A stretch of DNA of 64,000 nucleotides from a virus. The notes under the pieces were generated by a model. That model searched no databases. It was given only the letters and a program-made list of their open reading frames with translations, and was not told the DNA's origin. Positions 23,947 to 28,667 of this stretch are shown here, one piece after another (position 1 is the stretch's first letter; the number at the start of each line of letters is the position of its first letter). The position numbers and the translations under genes were made by a program. The stretch covers positions 797 to 64,796 of the IMG/VR virus record IMGVR_UViG_3300022602_000024. One strand, 5' to 3'.

Positions 23947-24381
23947 TTAACCGTTTAACTTATCTTTTATGTGGGAGCCATGTACACGGACCTGAATGTG
24001 TCCGTTATAATAATCTGCTGATTCTAAGACTTGGTGTCGAAATTGTTCTCTTGCTTCTATGTAGGAGCATTCTGCTTTGGATTTACAGTAAAAAAGTATT
24101 TCTCTAGTGAAGTTTTCTTTGCCTAGAGTTTCTACATCTTTGTTTAGTTCTATATTTGAGCCATAATATTCGCGCCAATCACTGTCAATTGTACCACGAA
24201 TTTTCTTTTTTTTCTTTGTACCGTTTTTGAGTTTTACTGTTTTATATGTTGTTTTAGAGAATTTTGCTAGTTTCTTGCCTATATATTTACGATTAGATAG
24301 ATTATTTGTAATGAGGTATACAAACCCGACACAATCTTCGGGCAAGTCCTCTACAGTGATGTTTTGATAAAGCCATGACAT
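23947..24381 (-). CDS. GIY-YIG family endonuclease-like protein
   Basis: The 144-residue protein has the two halves of a GIY-YIG motif in FVYLITNNLSNRKYIGKK (VYL and YIG), followed by a basic Lys-rich stretch. Then come SDWREYYGSN and a CxxxxECSYIEAREQF segment containing a candidate catalytic Glu. Small stand-alone proteins of this pattern are widespread in T4-like phages and are thought to be nucleases or selfish homing enzymes. It lies 20 bp after the second aminotransferase-like gene with no obvious ribosome site, and next to the structured gap. Whether it homes, repairs DNA or degrades host DNA cannot be told. Confidence 0.78.
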   Translation of the reverse strand: MSWLYQNITVEDLPEDCVGFVYLITNNLSNRKYIGKKLAKFSKTTYKTVKLKNGTKKKKKIRGTIDSDWREYYGSNIELNKDVETLGKENFTREILFYCKSKAECSYIEAREQFRHQVLESADYYNGHIQVRVHGSHIKDKLNG

Positions 24382-24400
24382 GCATATTAGTTATCATATT

Positions 24401-25462
24401 TTAATATAATTGTAATTTTTTTAATAGATTTTCGTTCTCATACAACATTCCGAGATTATATCTGTTTTGTTGATCGTTAAAAGGACTACACCATGCACCA
24501 GACGTAGATCTTCCAAAATTGGTATAATCGTTGCCCAACCCAAAGTGTACTACTTTGGTTTGCTTCAATCCCAAACGATTACACCAGTATGTTTGCTTAT
24601 CCAAGTACTTTGTAACATTGTAATCTACAGGAAATTGATTGATAATATCTAATGCTAATCCTGCACTCAACCTGTTGCAAATATTTTCATCGTTGCTCAT
24701 CTGCATGGGGTCTTGCGGTTTTTCCTTACACATGCGCACCGCTATCTTAGCACATTGTACAGGAAAAGTTTTGCTAAAGCTAAAAGTAATTTGCCTAATA
24801 CAATCTGCACTTAGATCAATATCAACCGCACCGTTGCTATTGGGTAGATAGATAAAATCTAACAACAGATCTATACCCTGTTGATTGCATTGAGCTATTA
24901 ACCAATCTAAATCTTTGTGTTTGTCGCCAGTTAATGCAAAAGGATAGCTACAGATACAAACATCATTGGCACGTAAATCATCATCTTCGATGTACGCCCA
25001 CTCTGCACCAATTTTGCTCCAGATATCCATATGCCACCAGTAGTCTCCGCGAAATACTCTAAATCTTTTGTTTTTGTTAAACAAATAAAAGTTTATAAAA
25101 CTTTCTTGTGTTCCTGCACTAAAGCCTACATACTTAAACTGATCAAAATTTTGTAAATTGTATCTGGTGCCTGCGGCAATCCAACTTGGAAATTTTTCTT
25201 CAAATTGCTTTACAATCCAAGGATTCAGCAAATGTTGCGCTAAATTCAAACTTTGAGTATAGTCAATAACTTCACTGTCTTTTATGCTGTTGCCACTGCT
25301 AAAAATACTGCGATATCTAGATCTTACAGGCTCAAATTTATTATTATCAGGAAATGCCCATATATATTCGCCGGGTACATCTAGTGTGCGGTCTCCACTG
25401 GCTTTTGCAAGAACCCAGGCCAAGGTTCTAACTTGATTTATATCTGTGCTAAAATTCTGCAT
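24401..25462 (-). CDS. PLP-dependent aminotransferase-like protein, paralogue 2
   Basis: From the ATG at 25462 (MQNFSTDINQVRTLAWVLAK) the 353-residue product has the hallmarks of fold-type I PLP enzymes. These are a phosphate-site segment FSAGTQESF, a cofactor Asp with Tyr (D202 and Y205 in LLLDFIYLP) and the Schiff-base lysine K231 in FSFSKTFPV, followed by KIAVRM as in HisC-type enzymes. The open frame extends to 25540, but that part overlaps the end of the 156-residue gene, so the inner start is preferred. It is about 25-30% similar by eye to the gene at 25886-26914. Substrate unknown. Sitting downstream of gp46 in an overlapping cassette is unusual for a phage. Confidence 0.72.
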   Translation of the reverse strand: MQNFSTDINQVRTLAWVLAKASGDRTLDVPGEYIWAFPDNNKFEPVRSRYRSIFSSGNSIKDSEVIDYTQSLNLAQHLLNPWIVKQFEEKFPSWIAAGTRYNLQNFDQFKYVGFSAGTQESFINFYLFNKNKRFRVFRGDYWWHMDIWSKIGAEWAYIEDDDLRANDVCICSYPFALTGDKHKDLDWLIAQCNQQGIDLLLDFIYLPNSNGAVDIDLSADCIRQITFSFSKTFPVQCAKIAVRMCKEKPQDPMQMSNDENICNRLSAGLALDIINQFPVDYNVTKYLDKQTYWCNRLGLKQTKVVHFGLGNDYTNFGRSTSGAWCSPFNDQQNRYNLGMLYENENLLKKLQLY

Positions 25463-25908
25463 GCTTGTTGATAGTAGTTGTAGTCTTCTTCCCAGTCTGG
25501 GTCGTTGTTGTTTTTTTCGTGACGTGTTTTCAAGATCCAATATAGTACAGGATTGTACAAGTCAATTATAAATTTTCCATTGGGACCAAAAAACAAACAA
25601 CTTGGGTATACATTGCCGTTTTCAGCAAAAAACTTGCTCTCCCATATTAACTCTTCTAAATTGTAGTCGTCTATGACAATAGATTCCAATTCAAAGCTGC
25701 GATCTTTGACAATTTTTCCATCGGCTACGACGGTATCACTGGGCAATTTGTCCCAGTGCTCGATAACTAATGAACAAGGACCTTCATCTAACTCTATGTC
25801 ATAATTATATTCGTTGTTGACCAAACCAGAATATAATTCTTGATTGGCCACAGTTATTTTACACTTTGGAGAGTCAACAATGTTTTTAAATATTATCTGC
25901 AGTTTCAT
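25438..25908 (-). CDS. Unknown small protein between the two PLP-enzyme genes
   Basis: The 156-residue product starts MKLQIIFKNIVDSPKCKITV, looks beta-rich for the first 80 residues, and then has FELESIVIDDYNLEELI and CLFFGPNGKFIIDLYNP, ending in a helical tail. I recognise the general pattern (DGKI-x-D-x-x-[FIL]-E-[LI]-x-x-I-x-IDD) from uncharacterised proteins of aquatic phages, sometimes guessed to be carbohydrate-binding-like. It overlaps the upstream aminotransferase gene by 23 bp and the downstream one by 25 bp, so the three are almost certainly co-translated and likely function together. No enzyme motif is seen. Confidence 0.7.
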   Translation of the reverse strand: MKLQIIFKNIVDSPKCKITVANQELYSGLVNNEYNYDIELDEGPCSLVIEHWDKLPSDTVVADGKIVKDRSFELESIVIDDYNLEELIWESKFFAENGNVYPSCLFFGPNGKFIIDLYNPVLYWILKTRHEKNNNDPDWEEDYNYYQQACRILAQI

Positions 25909-26914
25909 TTTTTATTTTCTCAAACAAATCCCAATGATCAAAAATGCTGACCAAGCTAATTCTATTATTAAAATCAGCAGGATCTAATTGTAATTTATAT
26001 ACATTCAATAAATTTTTCCTACTGTATAAATCCCAATCAGAATCGCCAATGGCAAACAATACAGAATCACTAGCAGTTAAGTTGAAGTATTCACATACTT
26101 GTTTTTGTTGTTGTATATAACGTTTATATATGTAGCTACAAGGAAATTGTTCTATTATCTTTGTTCCTATATATGCTGACAAATTGTTGTTGTAATTAAT
26201 GCTATCGTGTAGTTTTTGACCGTCAAATGTATCTTTTGTGTACCTTACACCTATGCGCAAGTTGGCTACAGGAAATGCTTTGCTTATACTAAATGCCACA
26301 GTATCAATACAGCCTGCAGATAAATCCAAAGTGATGCCGCTACTAATGGGATAGTAACAACAATCAATCAATACAGGTACATTCAATGACTCGCATTGTT
26401 GTATAATATTTAAAAACTCTGGGTGTGCTGATCCGGTATCACAAAAAGGCATGCTAATCACAACTGCATCATTTGATGCAATAGGATCGCTATCGGTGAT
26501 AAAACTCCAACTGGCACGGTTGCTGATCCATGTTTTTAAATGATAAAAGTATTCTCCGGAATAGCATCTAAACCGTCTTGTACAATGTCTAAAATAAAAA
26601 CTATCAAATGATTGTGTGGTTCCAGCACTGTAATCTGCTGAGTATTTTTCTAAACCTATTACGGTATTAGAATCGTGCCCTAAAATCCATTGAGTTATTT
26701 TCTTTTTAAATTCGTGTAACGCAGACCAATTTTGCAACTCGCTATACATACTTTGATCAAATAACTGCTTGATGTATTCTACAACTTGTGTATCTTTAAC
26801 TGCACGACTACCTTGAAATATATGATTTGCAGAAAATCTAGCATCAAAAAAGTTGCTGTGATTCTTTGTTGAAATCAAATAAGCCAACTGGCGAATGTTA
26901 TGTGATTTCGACAT
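25886..26914 (-). CDS. PLP-dependent aminotransferase-like protein, paralogue 1
   Basis: Starting at the ATG at 26914 (MSKSHNIRQLAYLISTKNHS) it has 342 residues. Fold-type I features: phosphate-site segment YSAGTTQSFDSFY, cofactor Asp and Tyr D184/Y187 in VLIDCCYYP, and Schiff-base lysine K212 in AFSISKAFPV, followed by LRIGVRY. The latter closely resembles the SK..GLAGLRIGY motif of histidinol-phosphate and aspartate aminotransferases. All key residues are kept, so it is probably active. The frame is open to 26971, but the inner start overlaps the gp46 stop by only 17 bp. Paralogue of the 24401-25462 product. The reaction cannot be named. Confidence 0.74.
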   Translation of the reverse strand: MSKSHNIRQLAYLISTKNHSNFFDARFSANHIFQGSRAVKDTQVVEYIKQLFDQSMYSELQNWSALHEFKKKITQWILGHDSNTVIGLEKYSADYSAGTTQSFDSFYFRHCTRRFRCYSGEYFYHLKTWISNRASWSFITDSDPIASNDAVVISMPFCDTGSAHPEFLNIIQQCESLNVPVLIDCCYYPISSGITLDLSAGCIDTVAFSISKAFPVANLRIGVRYTKDTFDGQKLHDSINYNNNLSAYIGTKIIEQFPCSYIYKRYIQQQKQVCEYFNLTASDSVLFAIGDSDWDLYSRKNLLNVYKLQLDPADFNNRISLVSIFDHWDLFEKIKNETADNI

Positions 26915-28667
26915 CTGTATTATAACTTGTGTAACCGTTTTCTTTAACAACGTGCAAAGTATTGTTAACACGTCCTGCTAACTCGTCTTTGTGCGATACT
27001 AGCCAAATTGATTTGTTACTATCTCGGCTCATTTTCTTAAGAATACTCAATGAATTCTCAACTCCTGAGCTATCCATACCTGAATCTACCAACTCATCAA
27101 TGAACAACAAGTTGATGGGTTGATATAAACTTTCCCATACATCACGGAATGCCCATGACAAACTCAAGATAAGTCTGTTACGCTCGCCCCTACTCAAGTT
27201 GTCAAAGTCTAAGTCTCTACCCAGTTCAGTAATGGCTACAGTTAAGTCGTTGTTGAATTTTACAGTATGCGGCAAGCCTATACGATCTAAATATTGCCCT
27301 AATCTAGCATTAAGATAACTTAAATTTTGATCAATAATACGTTTACGTATAAATGAATCTTTGTTGGTCAACAGTTTTAACAAAAACTCTTGATGATTTT
27401 TGATGTTGTCTAGTTCATTCATAACATCGTAACTGATTTCTTCTACTGCTTGCTCTTCCATGTCACGAATCTGATCGGCGTAAAGATCTGTTTCTTCTTG
27501 TTTGGCAGTTAACTGTGCAAGAATACTGCCCATGCTACTGCGATGCTCAAAAGCATCTGCTTCACTGTTGTAATAAACTTCAGGTTGTACACCTAGTTCT
27601 CCCAAGTCTGCCAGTGCTTGAGTATGTTCCATCCATTGAGTATTAGTGGCCAAGGCCTGTAGTGCAGCTTCTTGTAGTGCAGCACGCTTAGATTCCAACA
27701 TTTTTTCGTGACTGTCATCATGTAGGTCCTGCCCGCAAGCATGACACTTGTGATCTTCTAATGCAGCAATGTCAGCTCGCAGTTGATCAATAACTTTTTC
27801 TTCACGTTTTTCATCTAGTTCGCACCGTCGAATCCAGTTAGTCAGTTCAGTAATGGCTTTACGTTTTGTATTGTGGGCATTTAAGGCCTGGTGTGCACTC
27901 AATTCGGCTTCGATGTCTAGTTTGCTTAGTTCATCATATGCGGCCTGTAACGCATCTATATCGTCGGCGTGTTTTTTGAGCCATATCGACTGTGTGCGTT
28001 TTACCTTATCAATTTGTTCTTGAATACGCTTATTAGCATCCGTGACTGCTTTGATTCGAAATTCCTCTTGGCTAATGGCATCCTTAGTTACTTTGTTTAA
28101 TTCTTTAAGACGATCTGCTTTTTCGCTTAATAATGTAATGCCCAACAGTTGCTCAATGATAGTGCGTTGATCATTGGCTTTGAGTGCAAGGAATGGTTCA
28201 GTATAAGTGTTTAATGCAACAATATGCTTAAACATATCATGACTCATGCCTAACATTCTTTCAATTTCTGCTTGCGTTTCTCTACTGTCACCTTGAGCAT
28301 CATCGGTAATTTCTCGTTCAACATTACCGACAAAGAATTTCATTACTCCAGGTTTGCGGCCACGCTCAATTCTGTAATCAATACCGTCTTTTTCAAAATC
28401 AATTGTGACCAACATACCTTTGGTATTGGTTTTGTTGATTAGATTATCTTTTTTAATGTTAGTAAGTGCATTGCCGTATAGTGCATAGCTCAATGCATTA
28501 ATGATAGTGGTCTTACCAGTGCCATTACGTGCACCCGAATCATCGCCGCCTAAGTCTAAGTTTTCACCTAGCACCAAAGTTAAATCATTACGATCAAAGT
28601 TAACGGCTTGTGTAGTATTACCTACACTCATAAAGTTTTTAACAGTAAGGTCTTTTATTTTAAACAT
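26898..28667 (-). CDS. gp46: Recombination endonuclease subunit gp46 (Rad50/SbcC-like)
   Basis: This ATPase subunit of the Mre11-Rad50-type nuclease processes DNA ends for recombination-dependent replication. Visible features: Walker A GARNGTGKTT (K52), a long coiled coil with a zinc-hook pair C308/C311 in KCHACGQ, the ABC signature LSRGERNRLILSLSWAF, and Walker B LLFIDE followed by the D-loop VDSGMD. A His-switch appears in WLVSHKDE. At 589 residues it is close to T4 gp46 (560). The start shares one base with the gp47 stop, so the two subunits are translationally coupled, as usual in T4-like phages. Confidence 0.96.
   Translation of the reverse strand: MFKIKDLTVKNFMSVGNTTQAVNFDRNDLTLVLGENLDLGGDDSGARNGTGKTTIINALSYALYGNALTNIKKDNLINKTNTKGMLVTIDFEKDGIDYRIERGRKPGVMKFFVGNVEREITDDAQGDSRETQAEIERMLGMSHDMFKHIVALNTYTEPFLALKANDQRTIIEQLLGITLLSEKADRLKELNKVTKDAISQEEFRIKAVTDANKRIQEQIDKVKRTQSIWLKKHADDIDALQAAYDELSKLDIEAELSAHQALNAHNTKRKAITELTNWIRRCELDEKREEKVIDQLRADIAALEDHKCHACGQDLHDDSHEKMLESKRAALQEAALQALATNTQWMEHTQALADLGELGVQPEVYYNSEADAFEHRSSMGSILAQLTAKQEETDLYADQIRDMEEQAVEEISYDVMNELDNIKNHQEFLLKLLTNKDSFIRKRIIDQNLSYLNARLGQYLDRIGLPHTVKFNNDLTVAITELGRDLDFDNLSRGERNRLILSLSWAFRDVWESLYQPINLLFIDELVDSGMDSSGVENSLSILKKMSRDSNKSIWLVSHKDELAGRVNNTLHVVKENGYTSYNTDVEIT

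Follow-up and report, generated by a model that had tools for sequence, protein, structure and literature searches.

Organization of the locus

The window, meaning the whole stretch of 64,000 nucleotides that was analysed, belongs to a virus record of 354,429 bp. This home genome is that of a giant aquatic phage. On the minus strand of the window lie three overlapping genes, termed A, M and B, which are flanked by a gp46-like gene (upstream) and a SegE-type GIY-YIG gene (downstream). The features are as follows:

26898..28667, minus strand: gp46-like recombination nuclease subunit, with a 17-bp overlap with the start of A
25886..26914, minus strand: A, PLP fold-type-I enzyme of 342 aa (Aminotran_1_2 match)
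A codons, minus strand: K212, 26279-26281; D184, 26363-26365; Y187, 26354-26356; R220, 26255-26257; C-terminal R318, 25961-25963
25886..25908, minus strand: A/M overlap of 23 bp, conserved in relatives
25438..25908, minus strand: M, 156-aa predicted beta-sandwich with a CBM60-like fold and C-terminal helices (structure model)
25438..25462, minus strand: M/B overlap of 25 bp, conserved in relatives
24401..25462, minus strand: B, PLP fold-type-I enzyme of 353 aa, paralogue of A (structure model, homologues)
B codons, minus strand: K231, 24770-24772; D202, 24857-24859; Y205, 24848-24850; K239 (replacing R220 of A), 24746-24748; R334, 24461-24463
23947..24381, minus strand: SegE-type GIY-YIG endonuclease (PF19835, E 2.8e-32)

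The original prediction had described three overlapping genes with overlaps of 17, 23 and 25 bp, and this is exactly what was found, on the minus strand. Overlaps among the A-M-B genes are present in all 28 of the loci compared, and dN/dS values of about 0.05-0.28 indicate purifying selection; together, these observations argue that the arrangement is not due to chance. The overlaps also suggest that the three genes are translationally coupled. Inspection of the A-M-B genes by eye showed no clear ribosome-binding site. The longest listed reading frame of B begins with a TTG codon at 25540, while homologues support the ATG at 25462.

Both flanking genes are frequent neighbours of A-M-B in relatives, the gp46-like gene upstream and the SegE-type gene downstream, and the immediate neighbours in most freshwater relatives are recombination genes. 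The gp46-like gene is probably outside the A-M-B pathway, and the SegE-type gene may mark a site of gene exchange. PHROG 447, which matches at 23947-24381, is labelled NAD synthetase; the label looks wrong, as the match is the SegE-type endonuclease.

The PLP enzymes A and B

A and B are paralogues, with about 31% identity (E 1e-45). The PLP signatures originally proposed (K212, D184 and Y187 in A; K231, D202 and Y205 in B) occur at the predicted positions, and the Schiff-base lysine, cofactor aspartate and tyrosine are invariant or nearly so among homologues. The phosphate-loop Ser/Gly is also conserved in alignments of the A/B family. A C-terminal arginine is conserved across A, B and their single-copy relatives and, by analogy, may bind a substrate carboxylate.

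At the level of sequence profiles, A matches Pfam Aminotran_1_2 (PF00155) with 22.7 bits against a cut-off of 19.7 bits (E 6.6e-5), over residues 149-228, the region of K212. No match to B was found in Pfam, PHROGs or NCBIfam, and the DegT/DnrJ/EryC1 profile PF01041 matches neither protein. For B, an AlphaFold model computed from homologues of A and B reaches a mean pLDDT of 88.9 and yields 920 PDB matches at E<=1e-3. The top matches are fold-type-I aminotransferases (E about 1e-9), and the matches include 3p1t, HisC, the desaturase Plu4, BacF and a CobD-like decarboxylase; a profile of A and B finds Plu4 at E 6e-4. B thus models as a fold-type-I, class-I-aminotransferase-like enzyme. The similarity of A to B, the model and the conserved residues bear out the earlier assignment of both proteins as paralogous fold-type-I PLP enzymes.

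With the class I/II aminotransferases (HisC-like 3p1t and 1uu1; Plu4, 7rf9; BacF, 6l1n), A and B share the predicted fold, the catalytic lysine, the cofactor aspartate and tyrosine, and the C-terminal arginine. Identity to these enzymes is about 10-16% with TM scores of about 0.5-0.6, and A and B are smaller. In contrast to the class I/II enzymes, the usual asparagine of the NPxNPTG motif seems to be replaced throughout the A/B family, where an S-x-P-F motif is seen (alignment judged by eye); the phosphate-site arginine of A is a lysine in most B members; and both enzymes are kept in phages with an M partner. A and B most likely transaminate. The phosphate-site lysine of B, together with the long stem of its clade described below, suggests that B may differ from A in the reaction catalysed.

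Phylogeny and distribution of the PLP family

In a tree of 100 proteins, the A clade (support 96/81) and the B clade (100/100, on a long stem) are sisters (98/97). Next to them stands a large group of relatives that occur as single copies and are 280-320 aa long. A scan of IMG/VR with an alignment of these singles gave 222 encoding stretches. Among 84,980 prokaryote genomes the same alignment, used there since the mixed alignment was too diverse, found one relative, in a Pelagibacteraceae assembly; because the scan demands an exact short pattern, this cellular count is a lower bound. The 50,697 isolate phage records searched contained a single weak match to the PLP family, a distant one in Pelagibacter phage Mosig, and no homologue of A, B, M or two M-like paralogues was detected in the isolate-phage collection. 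Judged from these searches, the family appears to be nearly phage-only.

The singles sit in biosynthetic islands. Of 80 such loci, 44 have a StrB1-like amidinotransferase gene nearby, in every case between one and five genes downstream, and other frequent neighbours are genes for radical SAM enzymes, epimerases, hydroxylase-like proteins and UDP-sugar dehydrogenases (labels from Pfam or PDB matches for representatives, otherwise from reading the sequence). The amidinotransferase of contig L154 matches the StrB1 inosamine-phosphate amidinotransferase (1bwd) at E 5e-86; PF02274 misses these amidinotransferases, and the copy in the home genome was found with a protein query. The Pelagibacteraceae relative (46% identity) is flanked by genes for a GDP-mannose 4,6-dehydratase, a sugar-type C-methyltransferase, a polysaccharide-synthesis cupin, a TPP enzyme and a GT11 glycosyltransferase, and this gene content identifies the locus as of the surface-polysaccharide type.

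Conservation of the A-M-B cassette

A-M-B is common in IMG/VR. Among 49 distinct B genes, 48 have M directly upstream, and the exception is truncated by a contig end. Apparent B-only cases have simple explanations: in the L086/L087 group, tblastn finds M immediately upstream, where a simple ORF caller had dropped it, and the L150 contig starts inside B. The order A-M-B is found at 24 of these loci and at the home locus, M'-A-M-B at eight and A-M-B-M' at three, while in 11 the stretch examined holds M-B without A. As M-B occurs without A but B does not occur without M, M-B is the core and A an addition. The cassette also seems to recombine internally, since locus L006 joins the A and M genes of one lineage to a B gene from a different one. 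The expectation that the trio is kept jointly therefore holds for B, which is not seen without M save at a contig end, but not for A, which is absent from at least 11 of the 49 loci, including some marine phages; many distant PLP relatives, moreover, occur singly.

Protein M and its enzyme partners

M is modelled confidently (pLDDT 93.8) as a beta-sandwich that carries two helices at its C-terminal end. In the PDB it is closest to the CBM60 carbohydrate-binding module 2xfd, with the modest score of E 5.3e-4 and TM 0.50 (by query) or 0.69, and the match is one of fold alone, at 12% identity. The calcium-dependent CBM60 and CBM36 modules (2xfd, 2xhh) thus have a beta-sandwich similar to that predicted for M, whereas M has no detected sequence similarity to them, carries extra C-terminal helices, stands alone and is paired with PLP or radical SAM enzymes. 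No sequence-profile support for CBM60 was found, with Pfam, PHROGs and NCBIfam nearly silent for M; for this reason, M is regarded as CBM60-like in fold and not as a demonstrated CBM60. The beta-sandwich predicted for M agrees with the earlier proposal of a binding-type middle protein as far as fold is concerned. M is most likely a substrate- or acceptor-binding partner of the PLP enzymes.

Most of the 62 distinct M-family proteins, 56 in all, are encoded directly next to a PLP gene, which follows from the use of PLP genes to fetch most of the loci; 12 abut a gene for a B12-type radical SAM enzyme, with overlaps. One clade has an operon of the form rSAM-M'-A-M-B in which every junction overlaps, and loci L002 and L004 have the operon A-M-B-M'-rSAM. 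A search of whole records with an M profile, not seeded from PLP genes, likewise found M-like genes adjoining radical SAM genes; away from the trio, this is the case in L288, L292, L293 and L294, and at 243 kb and 325 kb of the home genome. Other M-like genes outside the trio adjoin glycosyltransferase-like and nucleotidylyltransferase-like genes. M thus recurs as a partner of both enzyme types, PLP and radical SAM.

Several M-like loci of the home genome can be described individually. At G000:C1:323664-325665, a B12-binding radical SAM gene overlaps an M-like (CBM60-like) gene by 14 bp, adjacent to a RecA/UvsX-like gene. At G000:C1:243078-244788, the gene that an M-like gene overlaps is of the SPASM radical SAM type, and a UV-endonuclease-like gene adjoins them. 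At G000:C1:137782-138626, two tandem M-like genes lie between glycosyltransferase-like and nucleotidylyltransferase-like genes, and this arrangement recurs in the long records L286 and L287.

Biosynthetic islands of the home genome

The original prediction had noted that the other genes of the thymidine hypermodification pathway are not in the window. Partners for a plausible sugar pathway do exist in the home genome, in two islands at 70-87 kb and 208-214 kb; the first has no M-B and the second no PLP gene of this family. The genome has a carbamoyltransferase at 77-78 kb, a DegT aminotransferase (PF01041 match) and an epimerase at 85-87 kb, a StrB1-like amidinotransferase at 210.6-211.5 kb, glycosyltransferase-like and SGNH-hydrolase-like genes, and 17 radical SAM matches at E<=0.01, six of them below the family cut-off. 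About 45 kb and 180 kb separate the trio from these two islands, and the link consequently rests on comparison with other phages.

Two contigs provide this comparison. In marine contig L084, M-B lies between a carbamoyltransferase and a DegT aminotransferase, and eight other genes of the contig have homologues (31-48% identity) that cluster at 70-87 kb of the home genome. In contig L157, a single PLP gene lies between UDP-sugar-dehydrogenase-like and hydroxylase-like genes, followed by an amidinotransferase; at 208-214 kb the home genome has the six other genes, identically ordered and with 30-49% identity, but no PLP gene. Two other long phage records have the dehydrogenase, hydroxylase and amidinotransferase together without a PLP gene, and PLP genes of the A/B family sit elsewhere in them. 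The simplest reading of these gene orders is that the PLP step may be encoded inside or outside the islands and that A-M-B would supply it in the home genome.

Some further features of this part of the genome were observed. Just past the end of the window (G000:C1:66949-73509), five tandem radical-SAM-type genes follow the tail-fibre region, and after them come several SGNH-hydrolase-like genes and a carbamoyltransferase. A family of about 360-380 aa, represented by L078:3181-4320 and G000:C1:73789-74862 (43% identical), is encoded ahead of a glycosyltransferase-like gene in marine loci with M-B and is also present in the home island. The amidinotransferase at G000:C1:210595-211509 (304 aa) apparently misses a middle stretch compared with StrB1 (348 aa).

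Relation to known systems

The pairing of a PLP enzyme with a StrB1-like amidinotransferase in relatives of A and B follows the logic of StrB1/StsC in streptomycin biosynthesis, and the carbamoyltransferase and B12-type radical SAM enzymes of the phage islands recall aminoglycoside pathways. StsC-type enzymes, however, belong to the DegT family, whereas A and B do not; the likeness is one of logic and not of a homologous PLP step.

Among phages, Pelagibacter phage Mosig EXVC030M has a distant PLP relative (24.7%) annotated as a putative aminotransferase; the large island around it, which adjoins tail-fibre genes, includes carbamoyltransferase, DegT-type aminotransferase, MoaA-type and Asp-hydroxylase-like genes. 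In contrast to A-M-B, the PLP gene is single and no M neighbour is annotated. The virulent Campylobacter phages CP220 and CPt10 carry exchangeable clusters that encode 11-12 radical SAM proteins and a putative glycine amidinotransferase; these radical SAM islands were noticed earlier, without a product being assigned (PMC2853527). They differ from the present system in that no homologue of A, B or M was detected in the isolate-phage collection searched. No paper naming an A-M-B-type gene combination was found in the open-access literature searched.

Proposed pathway and alternative explanations

The reading preferred here, to which roughly even chances are given, is that the three genes form one translationally coupled unit within a phage glycan or amino-sugar pathway, with A and B in amino transfer and M in sugar binding. 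A dehydrogenase or epimerase would first make a ketone on a sugar, after which A and B would shift an amino group from an amino acid to this keto-sugar or a related intermediate, while M would hold the sugar substrate or acceptor and/or scaffold the enzyme. As later steps, the StrB1-like amidinotransferase would add a guanidino group and the carbamoyltransferase a carbamoyl group; B12- and SPASM-type radical SAM and hydroxylase-like enzymes would take further part, and glycosyltransferases would link the product to an acceptor, probably a surface structure of the virion or the host. The product is probably a guanidino- or carbamoyl-decorated amino sugar. Translational coupling, transamination, the sugar substrate, binding by M, a complex of A, M and B, and the final target are presumptive elements of this scheme. 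The gene contexts described above, namely the sugar genes of the Pelagibacteraceae locus, the amidinotransferase neighbours and the L084 and L157 island comparisons, count in its favour, as do the predicted folds, the active-site residues, the conserved gene order with its overlaps and purifying selection, and the pairing of M-like proteins with radical SAM enzymes. Against it, the predicted fold may also permit decarboxylase, lyase or oxidase chemistry, and the O2/PLP desaturase Plu4 ranks among the best matches. The phosphate-site lysine and long stem of B, the fold-only match of M to CBM60, the distance of the trio from the islands and the recombination genes beside it in most freshwater relatives also speak against it.

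These same matches bear on the possibility that A and B act on a free amino acid, for example by arginine decarboxylation, oxidation or elimination, to give a building block, with M as a carrier. The conserved C-terminal arginine suggests an amino-acid substrate, both Plu4 and the CobD-like decarboxylase are fold matches, and an arginine-using amidinotransferase is nearby in relatives. However, class-I aminotransferases need a carboxylate-binding arginine for the donor too, and the relative in the cellular assembly sits among nucleotide-sugar genes, so that this explanation is considered rather unlikely. It is still less probable that M is itself the substrate, perhaps a virion decoration domain, modified in a RiPP-like manner by PLP and radical SAM enzymes. 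SPASM-type radical SAM enzymes often modify peptides, and next to each enzyme type lies a separate M-family gene, in many cases with an overlap; yet M models as a compact folded domain throughout, with no leader or core-peptide-like tail, and some M-like genes adjoin glycosyltransferase-like genes instead.

An obligate heterodimer of A and B with one regulatory subunit might be expected from a paralogue pair within one operon, given that fold-type-I enzymes are dimers with shared active sites and that B is without the usual phosphate-site arginine. It is nevertheless distinctly unlikely, because there are marine phages that have M-B but no A, although in one of them a further, divergent PLP gene is present; in addition, both proteins keep the lysine, aspartate and tyrosine, and L006 looks recombinant between the A-M and B parts. 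Hypermodification of DNA nucleobases, with the PLP enzymes acting on a modified pyrimidine, is very improbable: phage PLP enzymes are known in thymidine hypermodification, and the one pathway gene looked for, a thymidylate-synthase-family gene, is present at 87 kb, but there is no other positive support, the family clusters with nucleotide-sugar, amidinotransferase and carbamoyltransferase genes, and its cellular-assembly relative is in a polysaccharide-type locus. Of the targets named in the original prediction (a nucleotide-sugar, a nucleobase or a small metabolite), the sugar is therefore favoured by context and the nucleobase is unsupported.

Implications

The amino-sugar reading can be extended, tentatively and with considerable doubt, to a previously unnamed modular scheme for giant T4-like phages, in which CBM60-like partners matched one-to-one with cytosolic PLP or B12-radical-SAM enzymes would present a common glycan-type substrate to them serially, giving antibiotic-like guanidino- or carbamoyl-modified amino sugars that coat phage or host surfaces.

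Phage genes used to build amino-modified sugars have hardly been described before, and the PLP family considered here is common in freshwater and marine viruses, embedded in natural-product-like islands and nearly unseen in isolates. A-M-B offers a small testable unit, and the association of M with PLP and radical SAM enzymes a partner rule for solving the chemistry of phage islands. If the products are sugars, phages would make complex amino or guanidino sugars themselves and not borrow host glycans.
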